DNA of 64,000 bases from Lentzea fradiae (lineage in GTDB: Bacteria > Actinomycetota > Actinomycetes > Mycobacteriales > Pseudonocardiaceae), in the NCBI RefSeq assembly GCF_900100955.1, contig NZ_FNCC01000013.1:1-64000 (forward strand), given 5' to 3'. The translations under genes were made by a program, and so were the position numbers. Shown here in pieces: positions 688 to 58,214 of this stretch; position 1 is the stretch's first letter, and every line of letters starts with the position of its first letter. A model generated the notes under the pieces. It saw nothing but the letters and a program-made list of their open reading frames with translations. It was not told the DNA's origin and made no database searches.

Positions 688-723
688 GAAGGCCGCCGAA
701 CCCGAGGGGGTTCGGCGGCCTTC
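688..723 (-). terminator. tyrS rho-independent terminator
   Basis: A perfect 16-bp stem, GAAGGCCGCCGAACCC (688-703) with its complement at 708-723 and a GAGG loop, lies 19 bp beyond the tyrS stop codon. On the minus strand it is followed by a weak T-containing tract (ATCTTTCT). Confidence 0.85.
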
Positions 724-742
724 AGCGACCGGTAGTCGCAGG

Positions 743-2026: not shown

Positions 2027-2085
2027 TGTCCCCTACCTGGTCCAACGGGTTTCGGGAAGGTGTGCCGACGGGTACGTCCGTGGGC

Positions 2086-2523: not shown

Positions 2524-2535
2524 CAGAATCACGGG

Positions 2536-3579: not shown

Positions 3580-8404
<4,825 letters not shown>

Positions 8405-8408
<4 letters not shown>

Positions 8409-9273: not shown

Positions 9274-9277
<4 letters not shown>
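8405..9277 (-). CDS. argB: acetylglutamate kinase
   Basis: ArgB phosphorylates N-acetylglutamate, the usual arginine-feedback step. The 290-residue amino-acid-kinase-fold protein has the N-terminal [10 protein letters not shown] motif, the [10 protein letters not shown] glycine loop and the [13 protein letters not shown] nucleotide/substrate block. Its N-terminal helix ([19 protein letters not shown]) is of the type found in arginine-sensitive hexameric enzymes, so feedback inhibition is likely. It is coupled to argJ and argD by ATGA overlaps. Confidence 0.97.
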
Positions 9278-11492
<2,215 letters not shown>

Positions 11493-11558
11493 CCGAGTGT
11501 GGCCACCTGTCCACCCGTTCAGGCCACCTGGCGCTGGGCGCCGTCACCACCGTCGACC

Positions 11559-13061: not shown

Positions 13062-14539
13062 GGTTCGTCTGGCCCGTCCTCGCGTTCGTGACCGGCCTGG
13101 TGCCGCTGGTCGCGCCGCTGGCACCGGACCCCCACCCGGCGCTGACGGTCGCGACGGCGCTGTGGACCGCGGCGCTGGTGTGGCTGGCGCCGCGCAAGCC
13201 CGTGTGGGCACTGCTGCTGACCGCGCCGCTGTTCGCGGTGAACAACCTGTGGGCGCAGGCCATCACGACGTTCGTCGTCTTCGCCGCGTGCCGTCGCATC
13301 ACGCCGCTGGGCAGGTTGTGGGCGCTGCTCGGGCTCGTGATCGCGCTGCAGAGCGCGTTCAGCCTGGTGCAGGACCACGGCCCCGGCATGTCCTTCGCGG
13401 AGACACTGCTCACCGCGGTCCTCAACTCGATGTTCTTCGTGCTCTTCCCCGCCGTCTCCGGCATGTTGCTGGGTCGCCGCCGTCCGATGGTCCGGGTCCT
13501 GCGCGAACGCAACGAGTACCTGGAACGCGCGAGGGCGCTGACCGCCGCGTCCGCCCGTACCGAGGAACGCGCGCACATCGCCGGCGAGATGCACGACATG
13601 CTCGGCCACCGGCTCAGCCTGGTCTCCATCCACGCGGGCGCGCTGGAGCTGGCGACCGCCACCAAGGCTCCCCAGCTGCACGACCAGGCCGAGCTGATCC
13701 GCACCACGTCGTCGCTCGCGATGGCCGAGCTGCGCGAGATCCTCGGCGTGCTGCGCACCAACCCCGAACCGGAGTCGCTCGACGAGGACACCGGCACCCG
13801 GTCCGACATCGCCGCGCTGGTCGAGAGCTCGGTGAACGCGGGGCTCACGGTGTCGCTCGACTGGTCGGGCGACGACCTGCACGACGCCGACCCGCGCACC
13901 CGCCGGGCCGTGCACCGCGTGGTCCGCGAGGCGCTGAGCAACGTCCACAAGCACGCCCCCGGCGCCCGTGCGCGGGTGCAGGTCTCGGCCGGCGGCGGAC
14001 GGGTGCGGCTCCAGGTGCTCAACGGCCCGTCGGCCGCGACCCCCGGCACGGGCACCCGGCGCGGCCTGGTCGGCCTGGAGGAACGCGTCGGCCTGCTCGG
14101 CGGCTCGTTCACCGCCGGTCCCCCTGCCGAGGGCGGCTGGCGGGTGGCCGCGGACGTGCCCCTGCGTCCGGCCGCCGCGGCCGACCAGTCCGCGGCGGAG
14201 GTCGCCGAGGTGCCGCCCCCGCTCGCGGCCGAGGTGCTGACCGTGCCTCGCGTGCTCGGCGGCGGGTGCCTCGGCCTGTTCGCGTTGCTGCCGGTCACCG
14301 GCGCGCTCGTCGTGCTGCTGGTGTTCGCGCTCCTCAACCCGATGGAGATGAACGCGCCGTACTTCGACTCGCTGAAAGTGGGCGTGACCGGCGAGGAAGA
14401 GGTGATGAACGAGTTCGGGCCCGGACGGTTCGGCTCGGACGGCTGCACGCGGTACCGGACCTCGCACAACCCGGAGCTGTCCTACAAACTGTGCTTCCGG
14501 GACGGCAAGCTCGCCTCCAAGGAGCAGGAACGCACGTAG
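13058..14539 (+). CDS. NarL/DesK-type sensor histidine kinase, copy 2
   Basis: This 493-residue paralogue of the preceding gene has the same order: five N-terminal hydrophobic segments, HisKA_3 block AGEMHDMLGHRLSLVS with H179, GHKL N box REALSNVHKHAP and G box GTRRGLVGLEER, a late transmembrane segment, and an extracytoplasmic tail with EEEVMNEFG, DGCTRYR and LCF. Its H-box (RLSLVSIHAGALE) is closer to the family norm than copy 1. The GTG start overlaps the copy 1 stop. The response regulator starts 9 bp downstream, so the three genes probably form one signalling operon; the stimulus is unknown. Confidence 0.9.
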   Translation: MRFVWPVLAFVTGLVPLVAPLAPDPHPALTVATALWTAALVWLAPRKPVWALLLTAPLFAVNNLWAQAITTFVVFAACRRITPLGRLWALLGLVIALQSAFSLVQDHGPGMSFAETLLTAVLNSMFFVLFPAVSGMLLGRRRPMVRVLRERNEYLERARALTAASARTEERAHIAGEMHDMLGHRLSLVSIHAGALELATATKAPQLHDQAELIRTTSSLAMAELREILGVLRTNPEPESLDEDTGTRSDIAALVESSVNAGLTVSLDWSGDDLHDADPRTRRAVHRVVREALSNVHKHAPGARARVQVSAGGGRVRLQVLNGPSAATPGTGTRRGLVGLEERVGLLGGSFTAGPPAEGGWRVAADVPLRPAAAADQSAAEVAEVPPPLAAEVLTVPRVLGGGCLGLFALLPVTGALVVLLVFALLNPMEMNAPYFDSLKVGVTGEEEVMNEFGPGRFGSDGCTRYRTSHNPELSYKLCFRDGKLASKEQERT

Positions 14540-14548
14540 TCTGCCACC

Positions 14549-15190
14549 GTGATCCGAGTCCTCCTCGCCGATGACGAGACGTTGATGCGCGCGGGCATCC
14601 GCCTGATCCTCGAGAACGACCCCGGGATCACCGTGGTGGCCGAGGCGTCGGACGGCAACCAGGCCGTGGAGCTGGCCAGGAAGCACGACGTCGACGTGGC
14701 GCTGCTCGACATCCGCATGCCCGGCGGCGACGGCCTCAAGGCCGCGGAGCAGATCGCGAGGACCGCCCACGTCGTCATGCTCACGACGTTCGGCGAGGAC
14801 TCCTACGTCGCCCAGGCCCTCAAGGTCGGCGCCACGGGGTTCCTGCTCAAGGACACCCCGCCCCAGGACCTGATCAACGCCGTGCGCAAGGCGGCGGGCG
14901 GCGAGCCGATCCTCGCCCCGCAGATCACCAAGCGCCTGATCGAGCGGCACCTCACCACCCCGGACCACGCCACGTCGGCGCGCCGCAAGATCGAGGCGCT
15001 CACCGAGACCGAGCGCACCGTGCTGGAGCTCGTCGGCGAAGGGCTGTCCAACACCGAGATCGGCGAGCGGCTCTACCTGGCGACCGGCACGGTGAAGGCG
15101 CACATCAGCCGGATCCTGCCCAAGCTGGAGGTCACCAACCGCGTGCAGGCCGCCATCGTCGCCCACGAGGCGGGGCTCACGAGGTCGTGA
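14549..15190 (+). CDS. NarL/FixJ-family response regulator
   Basis: This is a 213-residue two-domain regulator. The receiver domain (1-120) contains DDE at 8-10, the phosphoacceptor D54 in ALLDIRMPG, Thr in MLTTFG, and Lys in FLLKD. The LuxR-type HTH lies at about 148-205 ([20 protein letters not shown], then [11 protein letters not shown]). It presumably receives phosphate from both upstream kinases and activates unknown targets. GTG start at 14549. The 3' end overlaps the convergent sthA gene by 14 bp. Confidence 0.95.
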
Positions 15191-16592
15191 AGCGGTCCAG
15201 CGCCCTGATCTTGTTGGTGGCGTCCAGCGCCGCGACCTTGTACGCCTCGGACAGCGTCGGGTAGTTGAAGACCGTGTCGACGAGGTAGTCGACCGTGCCG
15301 CCGCAGCCCATCACGGCCTGTCCGATGTGCACGAGGTCCGTCGCGCCGGTGCCGAACACGTGCACACCGAGGATCTTGCGGTCCACAGTGGACACGAGCA
15401 GCTTCAGCATGCCGTACGCGTCACCGACGATCTGGCCGCGCGCCAGCTCGCGGTAGCGGGAGATGCCGACCTCGTACGGGACGGCCGACGACGTCAGCTC
15501 CGCCTCGGTGGCGCCGCAGTAGGAGATCTCCGGGATCGTGTAGATGCCGATCGGCTGCAACGCCGTCAGCTCGTGCACCGGCTCGCCGAACGCGTGGTAC
15601 GCCGCCAGCCTGCCCTGGTCCATCGACGTCGCGGCCAGCGCCGGGAAGCCGATCACGTCGCCCACGGCGTAGATGTGCTCGACGGGCGTGCGGTAGTGCT
15701 CGTCGACGGTGAGCCGGCCGCGGCGGTCGGCCTCCAGCCCGGCGGCGCCCAGGTCGAGGTGCTCGGTGCAGCCCTGGCGGCCCGCCGAGTACATGACCGC
15801 GGCGGCCGGGATGCGCTTGCCGGAGGCCAGCGTCGTGATGGTGCCGGAGTTCGACACCGAGACGTCCACGACCTTCTCGTCGAAGCGGAACGTGACGGCG
15901 AGGTCGCGCAGGTGGAACTTCAGCGACTCGACGATCTCGGGGTCGCAGAAGTCCAGCATCCGCTCGCGCTGCTCGACGACCGTCACGCGGGTGCCGAGCG
16001 CGGCGAACATCGACGCGTACTCGATGCCGATCACGCCCGCGCCGACCACGACCAGCGACGACGGGATCTCGGTGAGCGCGAAGACCTCGTCGGAGTCGAG
16101 GATGCGCTCCTCGTCGAAGTCCACCTCGGACGGACGCGCGGGCGTCGTGCCCGTGGCGATGACGACGTACTCACCGGTGATCGTCGTCCGGTCGCCGCGG
16201 TGGGTTCCCTCCACGGAGACGGTGTGCGGGTCGACGAACCGCCCGAAGCCGTTGAGCAGGTCGATGCCGTTGCGGTGCAGCTGGGCGCGCACGACCTGGA
16301 CCTCGCGGCCGATCACGTGCTGCGTGCGGGCCATCAGGTCGTTGATGGTGATGTCCTGCTTGACCCGGTAGCTCGCCCCGTACAGCTCGCGCTGGCTCAT
16401 GCCCGTCAGGTACATGACGGCCTCGCGCAGGGTCTTCGACGGGATCGTGCCCGTGTTCGCGCAGACGCCGCCGATCATCTCCTGCTTGTCGATCACCGCG
16501 ACGCGCTTGCCCAGTTTCGCACCCGCGATCGCCGCCTTCTGGCCGCCAGGACCAGAGCCGATGACGATCAGGTCGTAGTCGTACGACGTCAT
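15177..16592 (-). CDS. sthA: Si-specific NAD(P)+ transhydrogenase (soluble)
   Basis: SthA moves hydride between NADPH and NAD+ in the cytoplasm. The 471-residue flavoprotein has an N-terminal FAD Rossmann motif [10 protein letters not shown], a second NAD(P) motif [15 protein letters not shown] near residue 177, and an FAD-contact block [14 protein letters not shown]. The redox disulfide pair of lipoamide and glutathione reductases is replaced by a single Cys44 followed by [12 protein letters not shown], the SthA hallmark. It is monocistronic and convergent with the response regulator. Confidence 0.93.
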
Positions 16593-16652
16593 GGCGAGCA
16601 GCCTACTTCGGCTCGTCCGGTTCCACCCCGGAACGATCGAGAAACAACGGGA

Positions 16653-17642
16653 TCACGGAACGCCCGCGCCGAACGGCACCAGCAGGTCGACCAGCCGGGC
16701 CGTGGCGCGGTAGTCGGCGACGCGCTCCGCGAACGGCCGCTGCACGATCCCGCGCACGGTGTCCGGCGACAGGCGCTCGTAGGCCGGGACCGTGTCGTTG
16801 CTCAGGAAGTCCCAGCGGTCCTCGCGGTCGGCGTAGTTGAACGCGGGCAGCGGGCCGCCGAGCAGCGGCCGGTACCGCGCGGGCGTCTTGCCGCCCGGCA
16901 CCGGCATGGGCCCGGCCACGGTGATCGCGTAGGTGACGATCTCTCCGGGAGGCAGCAGCCGGGAGCGCATCCGGTCGAACTGGTCGGCGATCACCAGGTT
17001 CTGCTCGCGGAACGAGAACTCCATGACGGCCTGCGCCGGCTCCGCCCACGCCGCGGTGGTGTCCGGGTCGATGATCCCGGCGTCGCGCATCTCCTCGACG
17101 GCGGCGATCCCGCCGTGCAGGTAGGCGGCGTGCATCGCGCCGAGGTCCATGAAGATGTGCTTCTGCATCGACATCAGCATCGACGAGAACCAGCGCAGTT
17201 CCGGAACGGTGCCGAGATCGAGCATGCCCGCCGCGAACGCGGGCGCGCCGATGTTCGCGAATCCCATCCACCTCAGCGATTGCGGGTGGTCCAGGTAGAG
17301 CTTCGCGTAGAAGTCGTAGACCGCGAAGATCACCGAACGGTTCGAGTCGGCGCTGCGCTGCGGATCCCAGTCGGCCAGCCGCACTCCCGCGTCATCGGCG
17401 GCGCGCACTATCCAGTACTGCCACAACAACGCTTTGTAGCGCTGCGGGGCGAGGCCCTTCTCCCGGTACGAGACCAGCGCCTGCTCCAGGGCGGCACGGT
17501 CGTACGGCAGGTCGGGGTGGACGCCGCCCCGCCTCTCGCCGTTGCCGTTGACCAGCGGCAGATCCAGGTAGCCCACCGAGTCCGCCTTGGTGACACCCAT
17601 GCTGCCGAGCACGAGCGCCGCCACCACCATAAGCACGCGCAT
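16653..17642 (-). CDS. secreted protein of unknown function
   Basis: Counted from the ATG at 17642 the protein has 329 residues. It begins with a likely Sec signal peptide (MRVLMVVAALVLGSMGVTKA, cleavage after Ala20), followed by a soluble, helix-rich domain without a motif I recognise. Blocks such as LLWQYWIVRAADDAG, FSSMLMSMQKHIFMDLGAMH and SFREQNLVIADQFDRMR look well folded and conserved in style. A longer start at 17699 would bury the signal peptide. It is divergent from the AlkD-like gene. Confidence 0.8.
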   Translation of the reverse strand: MRVLMVVAALVLGSMGVTKADSVGYLDLPLVNGNGERRGGVHPDLPYDRAALEQALVSYREKGLAPQRYKALLWQYWIVRAADDAGVRLADWDPQRSADSNRSVIFAVYDFYAKLYLDHPQSLRWMGFANIGAPAFAAGMLDLGTVPELRWFSSMLMSMQKHIFMDLGAMHAAYLHGGIAAVEEMRDAGIIDPDTTAAWAEPAQAVMEFSFREQNLVIADQFDRMRSRLLPPGEIVTYAITVAGPMPVPGGKTPARYRPLLGGPLPAFNYADREDRWDFLSNDTVPAYERLSPDTVRGIVQRPFAERVADYRATARLVDLLVPFGAGVP

Positions 17643-17788
17643 GAACGCGAACTGTATCCGGAACGCGCGTGTTTCCCGTTCACACGTGCGGCGCGTCAAA
17701 GGATGCTATGCGAATTCGTTAGCAGTTATGACACGAATGGGGCCAATAATCTCAACAGCGCTACTCCTTATGGCTATACCGTGCGGGC

Positions 17789-18457
17789 GTGGCACTTGAG
17801 GTTCCCTTGATCAAAGCGGTTCGAGCCGGACTCCAGGAGCGCGCGGATTCACGCAAAGCCCCGGAGATGCAGGCGTACATGAAGTCCGCGATGCCGTTCC
17901 TCGGCGTGCGGAAACCGGCCCGCGCGGAGCTGCTGAAGACGCTGCCGGTGCCCGACGACCGGGACGAGTGGCTCGACGCCGTGCGGACGTTGTGGCGCGA
18001 GGCCACCTACCGCGAGGAGCGCTACGTCGCGCTGGCACTGAGCGGGGACCGGCGCTTCCAGTCACCCGACCTGCTGCCGTGGTTCGACGAGATGATCGTG
18101 ACCGGCGCTTGGTGGGACTACGTGGACGAGATCGCGTCGAAGCGGATCGGGCCGCTGCTCAGGTCGCACCCGGAGGTCGTACGGCCGTTGATGCTGCGGT
18201 GGTCCACCGACGCCGACCGGTGGCGGCGCCGCACGTCGGTGATCTGCCAGCTCGGGGCCAAGGGCGCGACGGACGTGGAGCTGCTCGCGGAGTGCGTCGA
18301 CGCGAACGTGGCCGATCCCGACTTCTTCCTGCGCAAGGGCATCGGGTGGGCGCTGCGGGAGCTCGCGAAGACCGAGCCCGGCTGGGTGCGGGCGTTCGTC
18401 GAGGCCAGGCCGCAGCTGTCACCGCTGTCGCGGCGCGAGGCGCTCAAGCACCTCTGA
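17789..18457 (+). CDS. DNA alkylation repair protein, AlkD family
   Basis: This 222-residue all-helical HEAT-like repeat protein matches AlkD: early YMKSAMPFLGVRKPARAELL, then WREATYREERYVAL, WWDYVDEIASKRIGPLL and FFLRKGIGWALRELAK. AlkD removes bulky or cationic alkylated purines without flipping the base. The GTG start at 17789 gives the normal family length. The catalytic Asp (in VDEIAS) and Trp (WWDYVD) positions are present. With the AAG-type glycosylase near 3.6 kb it gives the window two alkylation-repair enzymes. Confidence 0.92.
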   Translation: MALEVPLIKAVRAGLQERADSRKAPEMQAYMKSAMPFLGVRKPARAELLKTLPVPDDRDEWLDAVRTLWREATYREERYVALALSGDRRFQSPDLLPWFDEMIVTGAWWDYVDEIASKRIGPLLRSHPEVVRPLMLRWSTDADRWRRRTSVICQLGAKGATDVELLAECVDANVADPDFFLRKGIGWALRELAKTEPGWVRAFVEARPQLSPLSRREALKHL

Positions 18458-18509
18458 CCGCCTCCCCCTCCGGCCCTCCCGAAGGTAACGCGGGAGTCCC
18501 TCGTTTCCT

Positions 18510-18542
18510 CGTGGGGAACGCGGAGGCCCCGCGTTCCCCACG
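18510..18542. terminator. bidirectional terminator
   Basis: A 14-bp perfect stem, CGTGGGGAACGCGG (18510-18523) paired with 18529-18542 around an AGGCC loop, lies between two convergent genes, the AlkD-like gene ending at 18457 and the gene ending at 18556. There is no T tract on either side, as is common in high-GC actinobacteria. Confidence 0.7.
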
Positions 18543-18555
18543 GGGGAGTCGCAGC

Positions 18556-19053
18556 TCAGGCGTGCTTGGCGCGGCCGGAGTAGGTGAGCGGGAAGACGAG
18601 CTCCGCGCACTCGGCGGGGACGTCCTCCGCCACCTGCACCTGCATGGTCACCTCGACCGCCCCGCCCGCCGGGATCTCCACGACGTCGGTCAGCGGCACG
18701 ACGGTCAGCACGCCGGCCGGGCACTCCTCGACGCGCTGCTGGGTGGCGTCCAGGGGCTGGCCGGGCACCGCGGAGAGGCTCTCGATGATGATCGCGACCG
18801 GGTTCGGGTTGGAGAGGCGGACCGTGCGCTCGCCCTCGGCACCCGGCAGGAGCTCCACGGGCGCGCCGGAGATGTCGTTGATCTCGAACGGCTTGAGCTG
18901 CTGCATGCCCGACTCGCCGCTGCTCACGGAGTACGCCATCGCGGGCAGCCGGGGTTCGGGCCAGGTGAGGTGCATGGCCGCCACGACAGCCGCGCCGACC
19001 ATGAGAATCGTCAACGACACGGCGATCTCAAGGCGCGGACCCAGACTACGCAT
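18556..19053 (-). CDS. membrane-anchored or exported protein of unknown function
   Basis: This 165-residue protein has a short basic start and one hydrophobic segment (residues 9-28, EIAVSLTILMVGAAVVAAMH), then an extracytoplasmic beta-rich domain. The domain contains VRLSNPNPVAIIIESL and VEIPAGGAVEVTMQVQVAEDVP, the look of an immunoglobulin-like sheet. Two cysteines (VEECPAG, PAECAEL) could form a disulfide. I know no function for it. Confidence 0.75.
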   Translation of the reverse strand: MRSLGPRLEIAVSLTILMVGAAVVAAMHLTWPEPRLPAMAYSVSSGESGMQQLKPFEINDISGAPVELLPGAEGERTVRLSNPNPVAIIIESLSAVPGQPLDATQQRVEECPAGVLTVVPLTDVVEIPAGGAVEVTMQVQVAEDVPAECAELVFPLTYSGRAKHA

Positions 19054-19368
19054 GGCGCAACTCTCCAGAGTTGTTGCTCCAGGCGGTGGGTTCGCCTCTA
19101 GCTCCCCACCGGACCGGCGACCATACTCGCCCGGCGGTTCATCGCTTCGCCCCTCGGCCCAGCGGGCCGCGCCGCCAATCTTGGAGAAGCTTCACCTACT
19201 GCGCAAGCGTCTGACGGGCGCCGATTTCCCCTTGTAATCAGGGACTTTCGGCACCTTGACAGCCACGCAGGGCCCTCACCTGCTGGTTTGATTCCAAATC
19301 CCGCGAGGCCGGGTTCACCCGAACGAGCGAACTTGACCTACCGAGGCCACTACCGTCCCCGGACGTGT
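19054..19368. other. intergenic region, no gene seen
   Basis: These 315 bp separate the start of the exported-protein gene (minus strand) from the pheT terminator. I see no coding frame with sensible codon use and no tRNA. A TTGACA at 19256-19261 has no convincing -10 at the proper distance. The region should contain the promoter of the gene starting at 19053, which I could not pin down. Confidence 0.5.
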
Positions 19369-30689: not shown

Positions 30690-31217
30690 TCACACCATGC
30701 CCTCGCGCAGGAGACGACCGCTCGCGTCGTACGCCCGGCCCACCATCGTCAGGTTCCTGAGGTCGTCCGAATAGGCGCAGAGGTAGACGTCGCCGTGCAG
30801 CTCGGCCTTGACCACCTCGCCATCGGCCAGCCGGAACTCCAGAACGGCGACCTCGGGACCGACCCGTCCGACGCCGACGACGCTGTCGTCGGGCAGGAGG
30901 ACCCCCACACCGCCCGCGAAGTAGCGGTCGTCCGGCGGTCCCACCTTCGCCTTGCTGGTCGTCCAGGCCCCGGTGACCCGGTAGGTGCAACTGACGAGCT
31001 CGTCATCGGTGACGCCCACCTCCAGCACCTGGCCCTCCAGCATCCGCAGGACGTGGCGGCGGTAGTCCGGCGGACGCTCGCACCCGTCGCCCATGATCGT
31101 CTCGATCGACGGCGCCGTCGGCGTCCCGGCGATGGCATGGACGCCACCCACGCCGTAACCGAAGGCCAGCGTGGCGACCACCGCGAGCCCGACTGGCACG
31201 AACCCGGTGATTTTCAT
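30690..31217 (-). CDS. secreted protein of unknown function
   Basis: This 175-residue protein has a Sec-type signal peptide (MKITGFVPVGLAVVATLAFG, cleavage probably near Ala28-Ala30) and a mature, beta-rich domain. Three cysteines are visible (GDGCERP, VSCTYR, LCAYSD). The ATG at 31217 has a good ribosome-binding site (GGTAGGAGAC). No family is recognised. It follows the S41 peptidase gene on the same strand with a 52-bp gap and may share its transcript. Confidence 0.8.
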   Translation of the reverse strand: MKITGFVPVGLAVVATLAFGYGVGGVHAIAGTPTAPSIETIMGDGCERPPDYRRHVLRMLEGQVLEVGVTDDELVSCTYRVTGAWTTSKAKVGPPDDRYFAGGVGVLLPDDSVVGVGRVGPEVAVLEFRLADGEVVKAELHGDVYLCAYSDDLRNLTMVGRAYDASGRLLREGMV

Positions 31218-31269: not shown

Positions 31270-32154
31270 TCACGCGATGGCCGCGACCGCCTTCTCGTAG
31301 GCGACGTCGAACGCCTCGCCGGCCGGGACCGCGATGTCCGGGACCACGCCGACGCCCTCCCAGTTGGTGCCGGAGACCGGGTTGACCGCGCGGCCGTTCG
31401 GGATGGACGACTTGAGGTGCGGGCCGACGCGGTAGCGGCTGCCGGGGTGCGCGCCGCCCTTGGTGGTCTCACCGACGAGCGTGGCACGCCCGTTCTGCTG
31501 GAGGTCGTAGCTCAGCTCCTCCGCGCCGGAGAACGTGCGGGCGCTGGTGAGGACGTAGACCGGCTTCGTGCCGCCGAACTTCGGGCCCGGGACGTGCGGC
31601 AGAGTCCAGAACTGCCTCGTGGAGTCGTCCGGGCGGTTGTAGATGTCGTTGAGGTGCACGGGTTCGTCGAACAGGTAGCTGCAGACGAGCGCGACCGTGT
31701 TCGGGTCACCGCCGCCGTTCTCGCGCAGGTCGATGATCAACGCTTTGGTGTGGGCCAGGATGGTCATCGCGGCGATGAAGGCCGGGGTGGCGAACTCGGC
31801 CGGGTGCAGGAGGCTCAGCTCCAGCAGGCCGATGTTGCCCTCCAGGCGCTCGACCCTGCGGATGCCGAACGCGTCCTGCTCGGCCGCCCTCCGGTACTCC
31901 TCCGGGTCCCACGCCTCGTCCTCACCGGTCTCCGGCACCTCCTCCTCGCTGTGCAGCAACCGGAGGTGCTTGTCCCCGTTGACCGTCTGCATGTCCTCGG
32001 TCACGAGCTTGGCGAACCCCTGGTCGTCCAGACCGGAGTAGACGCCCTCGGCGTGCCGGGCGCGCAGGACCTTCGCGACCTCGTCGGCCACGTCGGGGAA
32101 CACGTAGTAGGAAGCGAGCTGGGAGCAGAGGAGTTCTAGTTCGCGTTCACGCAC
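31270..32154 (-). CDS. S41-family peptidase (tail-specific/IRBP-like)
   Basis: This 294-residue protein has an N-terminal helical region like interphotoreceptor-retinoid-binding-protein modules (SQLASYYVFPDVADEVAKVL) followed by the S41 catalytic core. ALIIDLRENGGGDPNTV contains the structural glycines, and the nucleophile Ser is in TSARTFSGAEEL near residue 215. There is no PDZ domain and no signal peptide, so it may be cytoplasmic. GTG start at 32154. Confidence 0.88.
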   Translation of the reverse strand: MRERELELLCSQLASYYVFPDVADEVAKVLRARHAEGVYSGLDDQGFAKLVTEDMQTVNGDKHLRLLHSEEEVPETGEDEAWDPEEYRRAAEQDAFGIRRVERLEGNIGLLELSLLHPAEFATPAFIAAMTILAHTKALIIDLRENGGGDPNTVALVCSYLFDEPVHLNDIYNRPDDSTRQFWTLPHVPGPKFGGTKPVYVLTSARTFSGAEELSYDLQQNGRATLVGETTKGGAHPGSRYRVGPHLKSSIPNGRAVNPVSGTNWEGVGVVPDIAVPAGEAFDVAYEKAVAAIA

Positions 32155-32191
32155 CGGACGTACGGTAATCGCGCGTCCGGTACGCGTCAGC

Positions 32192-33031
32192 TCAATTCCG
32201 CTGGTCCCGCGCGGAGGCGTAGAGGCACACCGCGGCGGCCGTCGCGAGGTTCAGGCTCTCGGCCGCCCCGTACAGCGGCACCTTCAGCGACGTGTCGAGC
32301 TTCGCGACCACGTCGTCGGGCAGGCCGTGCGCCTCGCTGCCGAACACCCACGCCGTGGGCCGGCTCAGCTCACCCTGCGCGGAGGCCGCGACCAGGTCCT
32401 GCTCCGCGTAGCCGTCGGCGGCCACGAGCCGCAGACCGGCCCGGCGGCACGCGGCGAAGACCTCGTCCGCGTCGCGGGAGCGGGCGATCGGCAGGTGGAA
32501 GAGCGAGCCCGTGGAGGCGCGCACGCACTTGCCGTTGTGCGGGTCGACCGTGTCGCCGGCGAAGATCACCGCGTCCGCGCCCGCCGCGTCCGCCACGCGC
32601 GTGACGGTGCCCGCGTTGCCCGGGTCGGAGACCCCGTGCAGCACGGCGACGAGCCGGGGCGTGCCCCCCAGCGCGACGTCGAGGGGCTGCGGCACGACGT
32701 CGCAGACCGCGACGAGACCCTGCGGCGTGACCGTCTCCGACAGGGACGCTGCCGCCTTGTCGTCGACGTCGCTGATCCGGACGCCCTGCGACCTCGCCGC
32801 CTGCAACAGCTCGGCGTTGCGCTCGGCGGCCGTGGCGGTGACGAACAGCTCGTGCACCGCGCCGCCGGTCCAGGCGAGTGCCTCGCGCACGGCCTGGGCT
32901 CCCTCGACGAGGAAACGCCCTGCCTTGTCACGACCCTGGCGGCGCGTCAGGTGGCGAGCAGCAACGACCCGAGGCGTCCGTTCGGTGAACGGAGCTGCCT
33001 CGGGTCGGTGTGCTCGGGCGTGCTGGCTCAG
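32192..33031 (-). CDS. TrmH/SpoU-family RNA 2'-O-methyltransferase
   Basis: This SPOUT methyltransferase of about 279 residues has an N-terminal substrate-binding domain ([13 protein letters not shown]) and a knotted C-terminal domain with motif 1 [19 protein letters not shown], motif 2 [14 protein letters not shown] and motif 3 [18 protein letters not shown]. It probably modifies 23S rRNA. No ATG, GTG or TTG exists in frame near the expected N-terminus. The only near-cognate codon in position is CTG at 33031, which overlaps the rplT stop as CTGA with a GGGGACAGGG stretch upstream. I use it as the start with moderate confidence; the 3' boundary is firm. Confidence 0.88.
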
Positions 33032-33417
33032 GCCCTGTCCCCGGCCGGAGCGTTCACGTCGGCCGGGAGCGCGCCGCGCGCGATCTCGACCAGCGCCGCG
33101 AAGGCGGTGGCGTCGGTGACGGCGAGGTCCGCGAGGATCTTGCGGTCGACCTCGACGCCGCCCAGGCGCAGACCCTGGATCAGGCGGTTGTAGGTCATGC
33201 CGTTCGCGCGGGCGGCGGCGTTGATCCGCTGGATCCACAGCTTGCGGAAGTCGCCCTTGCGCGCACGCCGGTCGCGGTACGCGTAGTTGAGCGAGTGGAG
33301 CACCTGCTCCTTGGCCTTGCGGTACAGCCTCGAGCGCTGGCCGCGGTAACCGCTGGCGAGCTCGAGGGTGGTACGGCGCTTCTTCTGGGCGTTCACAGCC
33401 CGCTTGACGCGTGCCAC
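33028..33417 (-). CDS. rplT: 50S ribosomal protein L20
   Basis: L20 binds 23S rRNA early in large-subunit assembly. The 129-residue protein has the family features: basic N-terminus [20 protein letters not shown], then [20 protein letters not shown] and [20 protein letters not shown]. The GTG start at 33417 gives the normal N-terminus. A Pro/Ala-rich tail of about 10 residues is added at the C-terminus, typical of actinobacteria. It is third in the infC-rpmI-rplT operon. Confidence 0.98.
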
Positions 33418-33745: not shown

Positions 33746-34354
33746 CTACTCGGCGGCGGTCTCGGCGCCGTCGGTGTCGACGGCGTCGTCCTGCTTGACC
33801 GAACGCGGCTTGATGTTCTTGTGCGGCGCCAACACCATGATCATGTTGCGGCCGTCCTGCTTGGGGTTGGACTCGACGAAGCCCAGCTCCGCGACGTCCT
33901 CCGCCAGCCTCTGCAGCAACCGGTAACCGAGCTCGGGGCGCGACTGCTCTCGTCCGCGGAACATGATGGTCACCTTGACCTTGTTCCCGTGGGAGAGGAA
34001 GCGGGCCACGTGGCCCTTCTTCGTCTGGTAGTCGTGCGGGTCGATCTTCGGCCGGAGCTTCTGCTCCTTGATGACGGTCAGCTGCTGGTTACGGCGAGAC
34101 TCACGAGCCTTCTGAGCGGTCTCGTACTTGAACTTGCCGTAGTCCATGAGCTTGCAGACCGGAGGTCGAGCCTGCGCGGCGACCTCGACGAGGTCCAGAT
34201 CCGCTTCCTGCGCGAGTCGGAGTGCGTCCTCGATGCGAACGATCCCGACCTGCTCGCCGTTCGGTCCGACCAGACGGACCTCGGGCACGCGGATTCGGTC
34301 GTTGATGCGCGGCTCGGTGCTCACAGGAGCACCTCGGTTCGAGGGACTTGTCAT
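33746..34354 (-). CDS. infC: translation initiation factor IF-3
   Basis: IF-3 binds the 30S subunit, blocks early 50S joining and checks start codons. The protein contains the N-domain block [20 protein letters not shown], the linker [15 protein letters not shown] and the C-domain [20 protein letters not shown]. An acidic tail ([14 protein letters not shown]) follows. Two starts are plausible: ATG 34354 (with AAAGGA upstream, 202 residues) and GTG 34324 (with GAGG upstream, 192 residues), the latter giving the conserved STEPRIN N-terminus. Confidence 0.97.
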
Positions 34355-52756: not shown

Positions 52757-53763
52757 GTCAGCAGCCGGTACGCGGGCCGTTCGACGAACTTCGTCATCGC
52801 CCAGCCCAGCACCAGCGCCGAGGTGAGGAACGCCACCAGCAGCCACCAGGAACCGAACCCGGCGGCGCTGACGCGGTCCATCACCACGGTGCCGATCTGC
52901 TGGTGCACCAGGTACACCCCGTAGGAGATGCCGGCCAGCCAGGTCACCGGCCTGGCGACCGGCTTGAAGTACACCCAGTCGGGGCCCGCGGCCGCCGCGC
53001 ACACGAGGAGCAACAAGAAACCGAACCCGACCGTGGACCCGTACTCGGTCGTGTGAACCGCCTGCGCGAAGAGCGTCGCGAAGAGCAACCCGATCAGCTG
53101 CGGGGTCCCCAGCCTGTCCTTGTGCCACAACCAGATCGCGATGCCGGCGGCGAACAGCTGCGCCCGGTGCATCGCGAACCCGTTGTAGACCGCGAAGAGC
53201 GTCTCCGAGTGGTCCAGCAACGGCCGCAGCAGCAACGGCGTGAGCACCAACGCCCACAGGAACACCCGCAGTTTCGTCCCCCTGAGGACCTTCACGAGTG
53301 CCGCGGCCGCGATGAACGCCACGATCTGCACCGGGATCGTCCAGTACGCGAAGTCGACGATGTTGACGTCCGGGAACCACTGGTTGAGCAGCAGCAGGTT
53401 GTAGACGACGTCCCTGACGTCGAGCTGGTTCCACCCCTCCGGCGCGATCCAGCGCTGCACGGCGTAGGTGAGCACCACGGCCGCCATGTACGCGGGCAGC
53501 AAACGTGCCATCCGCCTCCACAGGAACTGGCCCGGTCTACCGCTGTTCAGCGTCGCGCAGGCGAAGAACGCCGAAACGACCATCAGGGTGCTCGCGCCCA
53601 TCGACATCGGGAAGGTGAACGGCAGCGACCCCAGGTGCGGGTGGCTGCTGACACTCGTGAGCGTGCCGTGGTGGAGCAACACGCACCCGATGGCGACGAC
53701 GCGCAGGACGTCCCAGCTGACCTTGCGGGCAGACCTGGGCTTTTCTGTTTGCGCTGAGATCAC
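52615..53763 (-). CDS. acyltransferase family 3 membrane protein
   Basis: This protein of about 382 residues has roughly ten transmembrane segments. The N-terminal block VSWDVLRVVAIGCVLLHHGT contains the conserved His pair of acyltransferase-3 enzymes (OafA-like), and RMARLLPAYMAAVVLTY follows the family arrangement. It probably O-acylates a glycan or lipid. The last ~48 residues are Ser/Pro-rich low complexity (SGSSGSSPRSPEPSVLPVSQ) encoded antisense to the isomerase-family gene, as if the original stop had been lost. The start is uncertain; GTG 53763 was chosen because the frame upstream (to a TTG at 53856) has no conserved features. Confidence 0.85.
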   Translation of the reverse strand: MISAQTEKPRSARKVSWDVLRVVAIGCVLLHHGTLTSVSSHPHLGSLPFTFPMSMGASTLMVVSAFFACATLNSGRPGQFLWRRMARLLPAYMAAVVLTYAVQRWIAPEGWNQLDVRDVVYNLLLLNQWFPDVNIVDFAYWTIPVQIVAFIAAAALVKVLRGTKLRVFLWALVLTPLLLRPLLDHSETLFAVYNGFAMHRAQLFAAGIAIWLWHKDRLGTPQLIGLLFATLFAQAVHTTEYGSTVGFGFLLLLVCAAAAGPDWVYFKPVARPVTWLAGISYGVYLVHQQIGTVVMDRVSAAGFGSWWLLVAFLTSALVLGWAMTKFVERPAYRLLTQIQSGSSGSSPRSPEPSVLPVSQPSTALADPLTEPRLSGPFTVQPR

Positions 53764-53903
53764 GATTAGGCAGGGGCTCTCGTCTTCGGTGCTGACTGCG
53801 TACGCACGGATCGAGGCTCGATCCTTCCTTACACTATGAGTGAGACCTGTATGCAACCTGAAGGTGTGCGTGCCGCCGCACGGACCGACTACCGTCTGCC
53901 ACC

Positions 53904-54581
53904 GTGGACGTACTCGAGAACTACACCGGTCACGTCGAGCCGGGCGGCCCCGCGGCCCGCCGCACCCTGGCCGCGCTGACCATCACGAAGGTCTCCGTCG
54001 GACCGATGGACAACAACGCCTACCTGCTGGTCTGCCGTTCCACCAACGAGGCGCTGCTCATCGACGCGGCCAACGACCACGACCGCCTCTCCGACCTCCT
54101 CGGCCACACCAGCACCCGTCCGCAGCTGCGCACGATCGTCACCACCCACCAGCACGCGGACCACTGGCAGGCACTGGGAGCCCTCGCCGGCTCCCAAGGA
54201 GCGAACACAGTCGCCCACGAACTGGACGCCGCCGTCCTCCCCGTCCCGCCCGACACCCTCGTCGAGCACGGCGACACCATCACGGTGGGCGAGGTCCCGC
54301 TCTCGATCATCCACCTGCGCGGCCACACGCCGGGCTCCATCGCCGTGCTCTACGACGACCCGGACGGCCACCCGCACCTGTTCACCGGCGACTCCCTGTT
54401 CCCCGGTGGCGTGGGCAAGACCACGTCCCCGGACAACTTCGCGTCCCTGATCAACGACGTCGAGGACCGGCTGTTCGCGGTGCTGCCCGACGACACGTGG
54501 TTCTACCCCGGCCACGGCGACGACTCGACGCTCGGCAAGGAACGCCCGTCGCTCGCGGAGTGGCGCGCACGCGGCTGGTAA
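53904..54581 (+). CDS. MBL-fold metallohydrolase (glyoxalase II-like)
   Basis: This 225-residue metallo-beta-lactamase-fold hydrolase has the metal motif THQHADHW (HxHxDH) near residue 93, HLRGHTPGSIAVL near 140, FTGDSLFPGGVGKT near 162 and PGHGDDSTLG near the C-terminus. GTG start at 53904. The last 40 codons are duplicated at 56297-56417, where the native terminator also lies, so the present 3' end may have been supplied by an inserted element. Confidence 0.93.
   Translation: MDVLENYTGHVEPGGPAARRTLAALTITKVSVGPMDNNAYLLVCRSTNEALLIDAANDHDRLSDLLGHTSTRPQLRTIVTTHQHADHWQALGALAGSQGANTVAHELDAAVLPVPPDTLVEHGDTITVGEVPLSIIHLRGHTPGSIAVLYDDPDGHPHLFTGDSLFPGGVGKTTSPDNFASLINDVEDRLFAVLPDDTWFYPGHGDDSTLGKERPSLAEWRARGW
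54461..54581 (+). repeat. 121-bp direct repeat, left copy (3' end of the MBL gene)
   Basis: Bases 54461-54581 match 56297-56417 with 4 differences in 121 (C to G, G to T, G to A, and TAA versus TGA stop). Sequence left of both copies is unrelated except for 1-2 bases. The pair flanks the ATPase gene and the iteron-like array, as attachment-site repeats flank an island. Confidence 0.9.
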
Positions 54582-54595
54582 CACATGTGCGTTAT

Positions 54596-54650
54596 GACCA
54601 CCTTCAGCAATTGAACGTGAACGACGAAGTCGAACGCGGCGAAGGTGGTC
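54596..54650. repeat. inverted repeat after the MBL gene
   Basis: GACCACCTTC (54596-54605) and GAAGGTGGTC (54641-54650) are exact inverted copies 35 bp apart. They could act as a weak terminator or recombination or protein-binding sites. The left arm carries TGACCAC, also the core of the downstream direct repeats. Confidence 0.5.
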
Positions 54651-54907
54651 TTAGCGCCGTTCGTGCATGACCGTGCGACGCAGCTGAGCCGTACCGTAGG
54701 CCGCGACTGCTGTTACACCTGAGACCAGTGTTCTTATGTTGAATCTCAAGACACCTGAATGGGGCAGTCAGAGGATTCGACTGGTCGTACGGTGCCATCG
54801 CGCAGACAAGTGAGTTGCAGACATCTTCAACTCCCCAACTCACCGAGCGGAGGGGCCAACCGGAAGGCTGGGCGCCTGCTTGGCGAAAGGTTCCACAGAA
54901 CTGGCGT

Positions 54908-54988
54908 CCAGACCGCCATCACCATGACGTCCAGATGACCACACGGATACCGACCAGATGACCACTCTTACCCTGGCCAGATGACCAC
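54908..54988 (+). repeat. iteron-like direct repeats with a 23-bp period
   Basis: CCAGATGACCAC occurs three times without change at 54931-54942, 54954-54965 and 54977-54988, exactly 23 bp apart. A degenerate copy (CCAGACCGCCAT, 8 of 12) lies in register at 54908. The array ends 29 bp before the ATPase start. Such spacing suggests cooperative binding of one protein, as at iterons or tandem operators. Confidence 0.8.
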
Positions 54989-55017
54989 TGATCTTGCTTG
55001 TACGGCACACTGGATCC

Positions 55018-56268
55018 ATGCCTGACACGTCCCGCCTGGTCCCCCGTCGCGCCGAGTCGCTGGTTCATGAGGCGCTTGAGGACACGCGTGTTGTCCTGGT
55101 CAACGGTGCTCGGCAGGTGGGCAAGAGCACGCTGACCAGGCTCGCCACAGATCGTCAGCCCACAGTGCTACGTCTTCTCGACGACCCGGCGACGCTACGC
55201 GCTGCCAAGGACGACCCCACCGGGTTCGTCGAGCACGACAGTCTGATGGTCATCGACGAGATCCAGCTGGTTCCGGAGCTTCTGCAGCCGATCAAGGTGT
55301 CCGTGGATCTGGATCCCACTCCAGGCCGCTACCTCTTGACGGGCTCATCACGGATCCTCGCCATGCGAACCCTCCCGGACGCACTACCCGGACGTATGGA
55401 GGTAATCGAGCTTTGGCCATTCTCCCAGGGAGAGATGCATGGCTCTCCTGACCGATTCATAGACGCCGCGTTCCGGCATGGCCCTCGAATCGACCACTCG
55501 TCGGAACTGCGGCGCCGGGACTACCTCGAACGTCTCGTTGTCGGTGGCTTCCCGGAAGCCACGCGTCGCACCCCTCGCCGGCGGACAGCCTTCTTCGACT
55601 CCTACCTGTCCACCTTGATCGAACGTGACGTCCTGGAGCTCGCAAGCATCGAGCGCCGGGGCGACTTGCTCAAACTGGTCGCCCTGCTGGCCGGGCGCGC
55701 TGGCGGCCTGTTGGAGCCGACCGTTCTCGCCTCTCAATCCGGTATCCCGCGGACCACTCTGATCCGCTATCTGGAGTTGCTGGCGTCGGTCTTTCTCATC
55801 AAGAGCATCCCCGCATGGTCGTCCGGTCAGACACGCCGTGCCGTGGGCACACCCAAACTCGCGCTCGTGGACACCGGGATCGCGTGTCACCTCATCGGTC
55901 AAGATCCTGTACGACTCGGTGAGCCGGGCGGAGCCGCAGGATCCATGATGGAGAACTTCGTAGTCATGGAACTCGCTCGCCAACTCACATGGTCCGAAGA
56001 GCGTGGACGGCTTTATCACTACCGCACCAAGGAGAAGCAGGAGGTTGACGCTGTCATCGAGACACCGGACGGCCGAGTGATCGGGGTTGAGGTCAAAGCC
56101 GGGGCGACCGTGCGCACTGAGGACCTCACCGGCCTGCGAAATCTGGCCAACCACTTGGGAGATCGGTTCGTCGCTGGATATGTGCTCTACGCCGGCCAGC
56201 AGACCCTGCCGTTCGGCGAGAAGATCAGGGCCCTGCCACTTGACGCGCTGTGGCGCCTCTCCCCGTAG
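55018..56268 (+). CDS. AAA ATPase with DUF4143 domain
   Basis: In this 416-residue protein, the N-terminal AAA_14 ATPase has Walker A NGARQVGKSTLTRL near residue 30 and Walker B LMVIDEIQLVPELL near 75, plus sensor LLTGSSR. The C-terminal DUF4143 region contains a PD-(D/E)xK-nuclease-like pattern, EVDAVIETPDGRVIGVEVKAG (Asp, then Glu-x-Lys). These ATPases are widespread, often on mobile DNA, with no settled function. The gene is less GC-rich than its neighbours and is bracketed by the 121-bp repeats. ATG 55018 lies 29 bp after the 23-bp repeat array, which probably controls it. Confidence 0.9.
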   Translation: MPDTSRLVPRRAESLVHEALEDTRVVLVNGARQVGKSTLTRLATDRQPTVLRLLDDPATLRAAKDDPTGFVEHDSLMVIDEIQLVPELLQPIKVSVDLDPTPGRYLLTGSSRILAMRTLPDALPGRMEVIELWPFSQGEMHGSPDRFIDAAFRHGPRIDHSSELRRRDYLERLVVGGFPEATRRTPRRRTAFFDSYLSTLIERDVLELASIERRGDLLKLVALLAGRAGGLLEPTVLASQSGIPRTTLIRYLELLASVFLIKSIPAWSSGQTRRAVGTPKLALVDTGIACHLIGQDPVRLGEPGGAAGSMMENFVVMELARQLTWSEERGRLYHYRTKEKQEVDAVIETPDGRVIGVEVKAGATVRTEDLTGLRNLANHLGDRFVAGYVLYAGQQTLPFGEKIRALPLDALWRLSP

Positions 56269-56296
56269 GACATCTGACGCTGATGTTCACCGCTAG

Positions 56297-56417
56297 CGAG
56301 GACCGGCTGTTCGCGGTGCTGCCCGACGAGACGTGGTTCTACCCCGGCCACTGCGACGACTCGACGCTCGGCAAGGAACGCCCGTCGCTCGCGGAGTGGC
56401 GCGCACGCAGCTGGTGA
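56297..56417 (+). pseudogene. duplicated 3' fragment of the MBL-fold gene (right repeat copy)
   Basis: This 121-bp fragment encodes the last 40 codons of the MBL protein in frame to a TGA. The metal-ligand region PGHGDD has become PGHCDD and the end reads RARSW instead of RARGW. There is no start codon of its own. It is followed by a strong terminator, so this is probably the displaced original 3' end of the gene at 53904. Confidence 0.85.
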
Positions 56418-56424
56418 CGCGAAC

Positions 56425-56450
56425 CGGGAGCCCGCCGATGCGGGCTCCCG
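56425..56450. terminator. terminator behind the displaced MBL 3' end
   Basis: CGGGAGCCCG (56425-56434) pairs with CGGGCTCCCG (56441-56450) around CCGATG. It serves the MBL transcript (plus strand) and probably the small gene at 56459-56605 (minus strand). Confidence 0.75.
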
Positions 56451-56458
56451 CAGAACGT

Positions 56459-56605
56459 TCAGCTACGACCGCGCTCCCACGGGTCCGAGTCGCCCACGCG
56501 ATCCTCGTCACCGAAGAACTCATCGGCCTCCTGGCGCATGCGGACGTAATCGACCGGGGTCAGGTCCTTGTGTCGTTCGGCGATCTCAACACCGTTCCGC
56601 GTCAC
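56459..56605 (-). CDS. 48-aa acidic protein of unknown function
   Basis: Starting at GTG 56605, with AAGGAAG 11 nt upstream, a 48-residue frame reads VTRNGVEIAERHKDLTPVDY and continues through VRMRQEADEFFGDEDR to DSDPWERGRS. It is acidic, with a helical N-terminal half, and resembles small antitoxin-like or regulatory proteins only in size and charge. It follows the gene at 56653-57246 on the same strand (47-bp gap) and ends 8 bp before the terminator stem. I recognise no family. Confidence 0.6.
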   Translation of the reverse strand: MTRNGVEIAERHKDLTPVDYVRMRQEADEFFGDEDRVGDSDPWERGRS

Positions 56606-56652
56606 GTCTCACCGCTTCCTTGACCGTATCTTCGAGCACTTCATCGCACGTC

Positions 56653-57246
56653 TCAGCGATCGAGGGCGTCCAGCAGGTCCAGGTAGCCGGTCGTCGTCCG
56701 CCACAACGCGTCCGCGTGCGGCGTCAGCTTCCCCGGACTCCACCGCTTGTCGGTGTACACCTGGTTCACCCGGCGCAGCGCCGCCAGGCTCACGGCCAGC
56801 TCGTCCTCCAGCCGTGCGCGCAGCTCCTCCGGTGAGGGCTCCGGCAGCCGGACCAGCTCGGCGGTGCCGTCGCTGATGGCGACCAGCGCCTCCTCGGAGA
56901 CGCCACCGGCCCGGCTCCACACCAGGGCGGGCCGGGTGATCTCGTGGTTCCACACGGGGGCGTGGGCTGAGCGCCAGCGGGCGATGATCGGGTTGCGCGA
57001 CATCCGCGTGGAGTTCGCCCAGTGTTCGGCGCCGACCGGCTCGGTGCGCCAGGGGACCTCGTCGACCGGGACGTCCGCGACCACGGCCACCTCGATGGCG
57101 TCCAGGTCGCGCGGCACGCCGAGCAGGTCGCCGAACGCCCACAGCTCGACCACGTCGAAGCGGAAGACGGGGCTGGGCGGCTCCGCGCACTTCTCGACGA
57201 GCTCGGTCAGGTGGTGCACTGCTCGGGTCCACTTCACCCGCGTCAT
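56653..57246 (-). CDS. conserved-looking protein of unknown function
   Basis: This 197-residue soluble protein starts [20 protein letters not shown]. It contains [20 protein letters not shown] and [14 protein letters not shown], faintly reminiscent of nucleotidyltransferase-like folds, then a Trp-rich stretch ([17 protein letters not shown]) and a C-terminal helical region ([20 protein letters not shown]). Start codons of this gene and the divergent amidase are only 17 bp apart. No motif is strong enough to assign a role. Confidence 0.75.
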
Positions 57247-57263
57247 TCTGCTGGAGGCGCACC

Positions 57264-58214
57264 ATCGACCCGGTTTCGGCCGCCCTGGCCCGGCTGGACG
57301 CCGTGGAACCGCGGCTGTGCGCGTTCCACGAGGTGTTCCGCTCGCCTGTGCGGAACGTCGACCCGTCGCTGCCGCTCGCCGGGGTGCCGATCGCGGTGAA
57401 ACGGGGCGAGCGCCGGAGTCACCGGGAGGCGTTGACGGCTCTCGGGTGCGTGCCGATCGGGTTGACGACGACGCCTGACGGCAGCACTCCGTGGCAGACG
57501 TGGGGCCGCAACTCCCGCGGTGTCACGCGCAACCCGTGGAACCCGGACCGGACGCCCGGCGGTTCGTCCGCGGGGTCGGCGGTCGCGGTGGCGGCCGGGG
57601 TCGTGCCGCTGGCCACGGGGGTCGACGGCGCGGGGTCCATCCGCATTCCGGCGGCGTGGTGCGGGGTGCTGGGGCTGAAGACGACGTCCTCGGAACGGGC
57701 CGCGGTCGGCGTGTTCACCCGCGACGTGGACCTGCTCGCGACCTACCTCGGCGTCTCCGGAACCGGCGAGCCGACTGCCGTCTGGTCAAACGACCTGGGG
57801 TTCGCGGAGGTGGACGACGAGCAGGTGGAGATCGCCTGGCGCGCCGCCGCTCCGTTGCGGCCGCGGCCTGTCCCGCTCGTGCTGCGCGACCCGGCGGAGG
57901 ACTGGTACGCGCACCGGTGCGGCCCGAACCCCGCGCTGGACGAGCTGTTCGAGACCACCGACCTGCTGCTCACCCCGGCGACGCCTGGTCCCCCGCACGG
58001 CCACGACGGGCCGGGGGCGCGCGTCAACACGGCGTTGACCTGGGCGTTCAACCTCAGCGGCCATCCGGCGATCAGCATCCCGGCCGGGTTCGACTCCGCC
58101 GGTCTGCCGGTCGGGCTGCAGGCCGTGGCACGGCACGGACGTGAGGCGGACCTGGTCGCGGCGGCCCGCGCCGTGCTCGGAACCACGTCGCCACCGCTCG
58201 CCTCGATCGGGTGA
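57264..58214 (+). CDS. amidase-signature family hydrolase (short form)
   Basis: The amidase-signature core is present: catalytic Lys in GVPIAVKRG, the Gly/Ser-rich block [16 protein letters not shown] and the nucleophile region [21 protein letters not shown], so the Ser-cisSer-Lys triad is intact. At about 316 residues it is shorter than the usual 420-500, with a compressed middle part. The first standard start is GTG 57303. However, a perfect GGAGG stands 6 nt before an in-frame ATC at 57264, which restores the normal N-terminus [19 protein letters not shown] give the ATC start with caution. Confidence 0.82.

Follow-up and report, generated by a model that had tools for sequence, protein, structure and literature searches.

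The 3' end of a metallo-hydrolase gene in Lentzea as a probable attachment site of serine-integrase elements, with a proposed integrase-less passenger in a decayed array

Introduction

Staphylococcal cassette chromosome (SCC) elements use the 3' end of rlmH as their site, and pseudo-SCC elements that lack ccr are known. Accretion tandems that contain cis-mobilizable elements (CIMEs) resemble the locus described here in that integrase-less units stand in series with an integrative and conjugative element (ICE) or an integrative and mobilizable element (IME) at a gene and are thought to be moved in cis; for IMEs with site-specific serine recombinases, the same source states that the target gene is disrupted (PMC5704250). 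Among the ssrA islands of Dehalococcoides, 15 of 31 have no integration module (PMC3146451), and serine recombinases are carried by 19 of 144 actinomycete integrative and conjugative elements (AICEs) of actinobacteria (PMC3218068). Here we describe a locus in Lentzea fradiae, contained in a stretch of 64,000 nucleotides (contig NZ_FNCC01000013.1, positions 1 to 64,000; the window), in which the 3' end of a gene for a metallo-β-lactamase (MBL) fold hydrolase is repeated on the far side of an island carrying a DUF4143 ATPase. Comparison with related genomes suggests, with a probability that we put at roughly 0.7, that the MBL 3' end is the attB of serine-integrase elements and that the window island is an integrase-less passenger in a decayed array.

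Results

The repeat and the empty site

The target gene, the two copies of its 3' end and the gene that marks the far flank are located in the window as follows.

53904–54581, plus strand: MBL-fold hydrolase gene (Lactamase_B; Pfam PF00753, E=8.8e-15), the target gene
54461–54581, plus strand: left repeat copy, the 3' end of the intact MBL gene
56297–56417, plus strand: distal repeat copy, the displaced MBL 3' end
56653–57246, minus strand: conserved 197-aa gene, direct neighbour of the MBL gene at empty sites

The two copies agree at 117 of 121 positions, and an ungapped extension of the repeat covers 135 nt at 93%; the initial annotation had reported the repeat at these coordinates with four mismatches in 121 bp, and this is correct. 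A search for the repeat in the window's own genome (G000; 8.5 Mb in 43 contigs) returned, besides the two copies, a single weak match (82% over 53 bases), which is on another contig. The MBL gene is found in all 24 genomes of our Lentzea sample, G000 included, and in 43 of 43 searched genomes representing one each of 43 other genera of the family.

Empty sites, which the initial annotation proposed to look for in related genomes and whose absence it would have counted against its proposal, were found in G003 and G015 (2/24), where the MBL gene is followed directly by the 197-aa gene, within ~10 bp and ~35 bp, respectively. A profile search detected 17 extra MBL 3' ends behind the gene in 10 of the 24 genomes and none in one shuffled control. 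This count leaves out G006 1759–1903, which was read as the full gene broken by N. Matches with E>0.1 were also dropped; one of them, G002 3839–3870 (E=0.67), might be a copy in decay. G022 34169–34201 (E=0.057) is counted because it stands behind a half-site of the kind described below. Two of the four displaced copies of G022 are decayed, and one of the four is this weakly recognised match.

Serine-integrase elements at the MBL gene

Large elements lie behind the MBL gene in G005, G007, G019 and G022. The distance from the MBL stop codon to the first displaced 3' end is ~21–29 kb in the last three, and in G005 the two element ends are on separate contigs. The last gene of each element encodes a protein of 501–508 aa, which in G022 has the Resolvase (PF00239) and Recombinase (PF07508) domains of a serine integrase, and in all four genomes this gene lies 3' of MBL at the locus studied here, with a displaced MBL 3' end beside it. 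Near the integrase G022 encodes a relaxase (PF03432), a MobC-like protein (PF05713) and an HTH_17 protein, and open reading frames (ORFs) with beginnings like those of these G022 genes occur in the other three elements (in G005 in part). The G022 element also carries a DISARM set (DrmD, DrmMI, DrmA, DrmB and DrmC) and that of G019 a SAVED-type effector. A second serine recombinase, of 440 aa, was noted among the DISARM genes of G022 (L067, 9869–11191).

At E≤1e-60 the integrase is present in 7 of 297 genomes of the family, and at that threshold no relative of it was found in G000, in agreement with the initial annotation, which had seen no integrase. GTDB species genomes were scanned and yielded 12 integrase loci, in Lentzea, Solihabitans, Nocardia, Kutzneria, Amycolatopsis and Pseudonocardia (the integrase of one, L129, is truncated), and an MBL 3' end lies beside the integrase in all 12, recognised by tblastn in 11 and through a decayed copy in L120, which is G019. 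The MBL 3' end is the predicted attachment site of this large serine integrase family. At six of the seven integrase loci of the family scan, G005 being the exception, a further MBL 3' copy lies beyond the element, and composite stages therefore exist. A tyrosine integrase was rejected as the driver, none being at the site among the PF00589 matches listed.

Anatomy of the predicted attachment site

The att sites were derived from an alignment of full MBL genes and displaced copies. In the four element-bearing genomes the MBL gene is host-like up to the core GATTCACTCTTTCCGGG and continues into a divergent 3' end, TGGTCCTGGGCGGACAACAAG (P'), and the displaced copies behind the elements start with TGTTCACCGCTAGTGTGATTYACTCTTTCC, the left part of which (P) does not come from the gene. 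When the outer flanks of three elements were recombined in silico, the empty-site core was restored, and the predicted crossover is inside ACTCTTTCCGGG, at codons 164–168. The alignment shows that an inserted element brings a 3' end of its own, which keeps the gene whole, and that the old 3' end is displaced to the far side. Insertion at the 3' end with restoration of the gene, as proposed in the initial annotation, is thus borne out by the locus comparison; that the footprint belongs to an array, that relatives carry a serine integrase, and that a P half-site survives where cores are lost had not been foreseen.

The P half-site precedes 14 of the 17 extra Lentzea copies, the shortened site of the window included, and all 13 matches in a scan with a 26-nt half-site lie directly before a copy, 22–27 bp upstream. 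P' is present in all five of the MBL genes that were read next to an element (G005, G007, G019, G022 and G049) and in none of 58 without one (20 from Lentzea, 10 from array genomes and 28 from further genera). All 30 outgroup loci were taken in coding orientation for this comparison, of which L088 (G049) and L080 (G041) had already been counted, so that 28 were added; it was made without the integrase genomes G159 and G288, in which the full MBL gene was not read, and a P'-like stretch in L092 was discounted because it lies outside the MBL gene. The absence of P' from genes without an adjacent element speaks against simple decay of an ICE and for passengers that came in with an ICE which has since departed.

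The core itself has changed in the window:

54387–54410, plus strand: former attB core in the MBL gene, codons 162–169, third base of all eight codons recoded

Core codons were compared in 19 Lentzea genes without an element, G006 being left out. The rare-codon core GGA GAT TCA CTC TTT CCG GGG is common to 18 of these and the following GGT codon is kept in 17, and the gene of G000 is the only one that differs at all eight codons. A 17-bp core pattern is correspondingly found in 23/24 Lentzea genomes, at the MBL gene and its copies, and in 0/273 other genomes of the family; the one Lentzea genome without it is that of the window. G019, the deepest branch of the MBL tree, has the rare-codon core, and the tree does not resolve the place of G000 among the other 23. 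The presence of this form in G019 means that it was, most simply, lost from the MBL gene of the window. In MBL genes from 30 of 30 loci of other genera, inspected by eye, ordinary GC-rich codons occupy the core position. The rare codons that Lentzea keeps in the attB core lie at silent sites.

The window island as an array in decay

Between and behind the two copies the following features were mapped.

54582–54815, no strand assigned: left part of a first unit, 91% identical over 235 bp to G022 30836–31067
54812–56294, plus strand: ATPase unit, 93.1% identical over 1488 bp to G022 31686–33172 and 88% over 1409 bp to G013
54931–54988, plus strand: three CCAGATGACCAC repeats at 23-bp spacing, immediately ahead of the ATPase start codon
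55018–56268, plus strand: ATPase gene with AAA_14 and DUF4143 (Pfam), start codon ATG
56284–56296, plus strand: P half-site TGTTCACCGCTAG of the element type, still present where the ATPase unit ends on the right, from a sequence scan
56296–56297, no strand assigned: deletion junction, at which a net ~75 bp of the G022 sequence are missing, comprising the att core and MBL codons ~163–186
56427–56449, no strand assigned: terminator-like hairpin behind the distal copy, read from the sequence
56455–56587, minus strand: remnant of a Phd/PIN toxin-antitoxin unit, 85.7% identical over 133 bp to G022 33812–33944

A heuristic gene call finds the ATPase gene, a 55-codon frame over the distal copy and no others in the window unit. 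The initial annotation had described the DNA between the copies as less GC-rich and as carrying a DUF4143 ATPase and a repeat array. The lower GC content is confirmed at third codon positions (GC3 of 0.74 in the ATPase against 0.93 in MBL), both ATPase domains are recognised by Pfam, and CCAGATGACCAC does occur three times at 23-bp spacing in 54931–54988; Tandem Repeats Finder reported no array in 53500–57500, and it was a separate repeat search that showed this one. The terminator behind the distal copy, native-looking in the initial annotation, is unlikely to be the original end of the MBL locus, as the neighbouring gene in the empty site of G003 starts within ~10 bp of the MBL stop codon; hairpin-like stretches similar to that of the window were seen by eye between MBL and the toxin-antitoxin unit in several relatives, G010, G012 and G023 among them, and in the window the remnant of that unit comes next after the hairpin. 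Analyses of the ATPase used 55024 to 56265/8, and the mechanical ORF start is a TTG at 54994. Among relatives, CCAGATGACCAC is found three times in G022, once exactly and twice as variants in G013, twice in G014, and both exactly and as variants in G150 and G179. These repeats, which five other genomes thus retain, some as variants, look like operators.

The segment of G022 that matches the first unit is directly behind the MBL 3' copy of that genome, and the first unit there runs on to a decayed MBL 3' copy. In the window the first unit, which contains an imperfect inverted repeat (54589–54605/54641–54657), joins the ATPase unit without ~618 bp that are present in G022 and hold the decayed MBL copy (E=2.2e-9); this junction may also reflect an insertion in G022 rather than a deletion in the window. 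The deletion at the right end was mapped between G000 3394 and 3398, against 33172 and 33251 in G022 (the window coordinate is the G000 value plus 52900). The window holds an array in decay, with two units joined, the right core deleted, the MBL core recoded and the next unit fragmentary. The island is accordingly a remnant, one of the possibilities raised in the initial annotation, and both cores are lost from the window. Like a CIME, the window unit has no integration or transfer genes of its own. A CIME also retains attL and attR, and here the right core is deleted and the left site is of attB type, without P' and with a recoded core; the window, having lost its att sites, falls outside the definition of a CIME.

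Cargo of the small units in Lentzea is either the ATPase (G000, G013 and G022) or Phd/PIN. The window-type ATPase is at the site in 3/24 genomes, G014 keeps a remnant of its upstream region, and the order ATPase then toxin-antitoxin is shared by G000, G022 and G013. A Beta protein (PD-Lambda-2_C-like) is found at the site in other genomes and as a remnant inside the G013 array. In G023 (L069, 1684–3253) there are two tandem Phd/PIN-type stretches with an MBL 3' copy between them, the distal of which is 73–79% identical and looks degenerate. In G011 (L073) MBL is directly followed by a 43% identical DUF4143 ATPase, behind which no MBL 3' copy was detected; this ATPase has either arrived independently or lost its junction.

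The ATPase

The ATPase matches the PADLOC candidate defence profile PDC-S01 (E=5.5e-169), and its tail, EVDAVIE...GVEVKAG, has what we take to be a PD-(D/E)XK-like pattern. To judge from profile and context, an anti-phage role is the most likely one for this candidate defence gene. Solved structures gave no sequence match at E≤0.01, viral contigs gave no relative with the peptide patterns used, and in 388 plasmid records the best place in each was below 60% identity.

Silent-site identities of the ATPase in three Lentzea pairs are 0.806, 0.667 and 0.713, near those of neighbouring genes; for G000 and G022 the value of 0.806 compares with 0.517–0.710 in five neighbouring genes. Between genera the silent identity is 0.54–0.59 for the ATPase against 0.43–0.55 for MBL, and the ATPase proteins are 92–98% identical. 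GC3 in the genomes compared is 0.71–0.75 for the ATPase and 0.83–0.93 for MBL. To judge from these values, the ATPase is kept by strong purifying selection and its unit looks old at the site or moved long ago, while the low GC3 and scattered occurrence of the gene speak for a foreign origin. The two copies of the MBL 3' end within a genome differ at 1 of 121 positions in G013, G018 and G023 and at 4 of 121 in G000; one G006 row (G006_R) was out of register and was excluded from this comparison.

Arrays in other genera

The last 62 MBL codons were used as the query in the 297 family genomes. Matches were obtained in 293, and 45 genomes (10 Lentzea and 35 others) have two or more, with a maximum of seven in G191. 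In all ten fetched non-Lentzea genomes with several matches the further copies are behind MBL. Among the 24 copies counted in other genera, TTCACCGCT immediately precedes 15, a near form precedes four and neither is present at five, and on the coding strand of the array stretches 15 of 16 TTCACCGCT matches stand before a copy. G150 and G179, from two other genera, have ATPases 93% and 95% identical in amino acids to that of the window at the same site, each followed by the half-site and an MBL copy, and Phd/PIN units 70–86% identical are present in two other genera.

Two further loci were noted. A JetABCD (Wadjet) set lies within 8.8 kb between two MBL 3' ends in G149 (L145), a genome with no integrase at E≤1e-60. 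G191 (L136, oriented 1–19300) has six extra MBL 3' copies, and its cargo comprises two diverged DUF4143 ATPases, two Phd/PIN pairs, a Uma2 protein and two 2OG-Fe(II) oxygenase-domain proteins.

Discussion

Proposed pathway

The integrase-less unit of the window most likely reached its place between an intact gene and a P-type junction in series with such an element, by steps each of which would be an ordinary attB × attP or attL × attR reaction. An element would insert at MBL beside units already present (attB × attP), and element and units would then excise together, the left junction recombining with the distal right junction (attL × attR). The composite would insert in a new host, and the element would later leave alone through its own right junction. 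The unit would be left with an intact attB-type gene before it and a right junction behind it, and repetition would stack units next to MBL. The gene is intact on the left and the junction is of P type on the right, on this account, because the element came with passengers and left alone. In the window, later decay would have fused two units, deleted ~75 bp with the right core and recoded the MBL core, and the array would thereby have become fixed. Applied to the window, the new kind of mobile unit suggested in the initial annotation goes too far; a milder form of the idea, integrase-less passengers that build up in the manner of cassettes, is supported in other genera of the family.

Alternative explanations

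A classical ICE that decayed in place, losing everything except one cargo gene and two junctions, would account for the P half-site at the right end and for the integrase-bearing elements at the same site, and in tandems of this kind elements commonly decay into CIMEs (PMC5704250). Such decay would leave P' in the MBL gene, however, and P' is in none of the 58 element-free genes; the same ATPase and toxin-antitoxin units also recur in other genera, and no integrase fragment was seen between cargo and half-site when the sequences were inspected by eye, no search being made. We consider this explanation improbable. Homologous recombination between the 3'-end repeats alone, with the integrase incidental, agrees with the near-identity of the copies within a genome but has no need of a half-site foreign to the gene, which nevertheless stands before 14 of 17 copies and recurs in other genera, and we give it very little weight. 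The units might instead move as independent circles in the manner of integron cassettes, the integrase acting in trans on a P-B' circle and attB. The small size of the units, the up to six extra copies in G191 and the shared half-site fit such movement, as does the fact that genomes with extra copies far outnumber those with an integrase. It calls for a reaction of attB × attR type, which to our knowledge serine integrases do not normally perform, and the composite pathway gives the same end product; we regard the circles as unlikely. An integron-like defence library at the MBL 3' end, to which units of one or a few genes, each with the half-site and a copy of the last 62 codons at its end, would be added singly by a large serine integrase from elsewhere while host selection keeps the rare-codon core usable, seems to us unlikely to the same degree.

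Greater weight, although still well short of an even chance, is given to the possibility that the arrangement is ancestral in Lentzea and was inherited vertically with many losses, nothing having moved recently; for the window unit this is compatible with the passenger reading. The initial annotation had named a stable ancestral arrangement of both copies and the ATPase as evidence against its own proposal, and relatives agree with this in part: the same unit is in the same place and order in G000, G022 and G013, and at silent sites it has diverged about as far as the genes around it. On the other hand, the window-type ATPase is at the site in just three of the 24 genomes, plus the upstream remnant of G014, its silent identity between G000 and G022 (0.806) is above that of the five neighbouring genes (0.517–0.710), and its GC3 is 0.71–0.75 where that of MBL is 0.83–0.93.

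We thus prefer attB of serine-integrase elements with an integrase-less passenger, and several points weigh against it. Movement of the small units is inferred from sequence, no excision, circle or transfer having been observed, and the pathway leaves the first founding of a unit unexplained. There is no recognisable half-site at 3 of the 17 extra Lentzea copies and 5 of the 24 copies in other genera, and cargo without an MBL copy behind it occurs at the locus, for example in G001, G008, G010, G011 and G012. The inverted symmetry of the predicted attP, tried as proof of the crossover centre, was reached by 527 of 2000 shuffles and is not significant. Of the 35 non-Lentzea genomes with several matches 13 were looked at, and the rest could hold paralogues; more distant integrases may likewise be present in the genomes. 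Recent transfer of the ATPase, suggested by protein identity alone, was dropped after the silent-site comparison, and since the copies are near-identical though the ATPase looks old, gene conversion must be assumed.

Comparison with known systems

If the passenger reading is right, the locus shows how actinomycetes can build up single defence genes and toxin-antitoxin pairs that bring no mobility genes themselves. With the recombinase family and the site named the mechanism becomes testable, and the locus is a fixed place in which to seek new defence genes in several genera. A literature search returned no title or abstract opening in which integration at the end of an MBL or metallo-hydrolase gene is named, which is weak evidence of absence as subscription journals were mostly outside the search.

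The locus works like the accretion islands and has an integron-like layout. With chromosomal integrons it shares arrays of small units that have a recombination site in common and in some cases carry defence genes, and it differs in having a serine integrase and a site that is the end of a host gene. The SCC elements described in PMC3146451 are alike in their serine recombinases, insertion at one gene and composite islands, whereas the recombinase system, target gene and hosts differ. The Dehalococcoides ssrA islands of the same paper likewise combine a serine recombinase with tandem islands behind one gene and 3'-end repeats; their target is a transfer-messenger RNA gene with a 20-bp repeat, whereas here ~62 codons of a protein gene are duplicated and many small defence-type units are present. 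AICEs are integrative elements in actinobacteria, a minority of them with serine recombinases (PMC3218068), and the element considered here, that of G022, differs in having a MobA/VirD2-like relaxase and a MobC-like protein. In contrast to the target-gene disruption stated in PMC5704250 for IMEs with serine recombinases, the target gene is restored here, and in contrast to the CIME tandems of that paper an intact attB-type gene rather than attL is left, the integrase is a serine integrase, and in the window an att core has been deleted.

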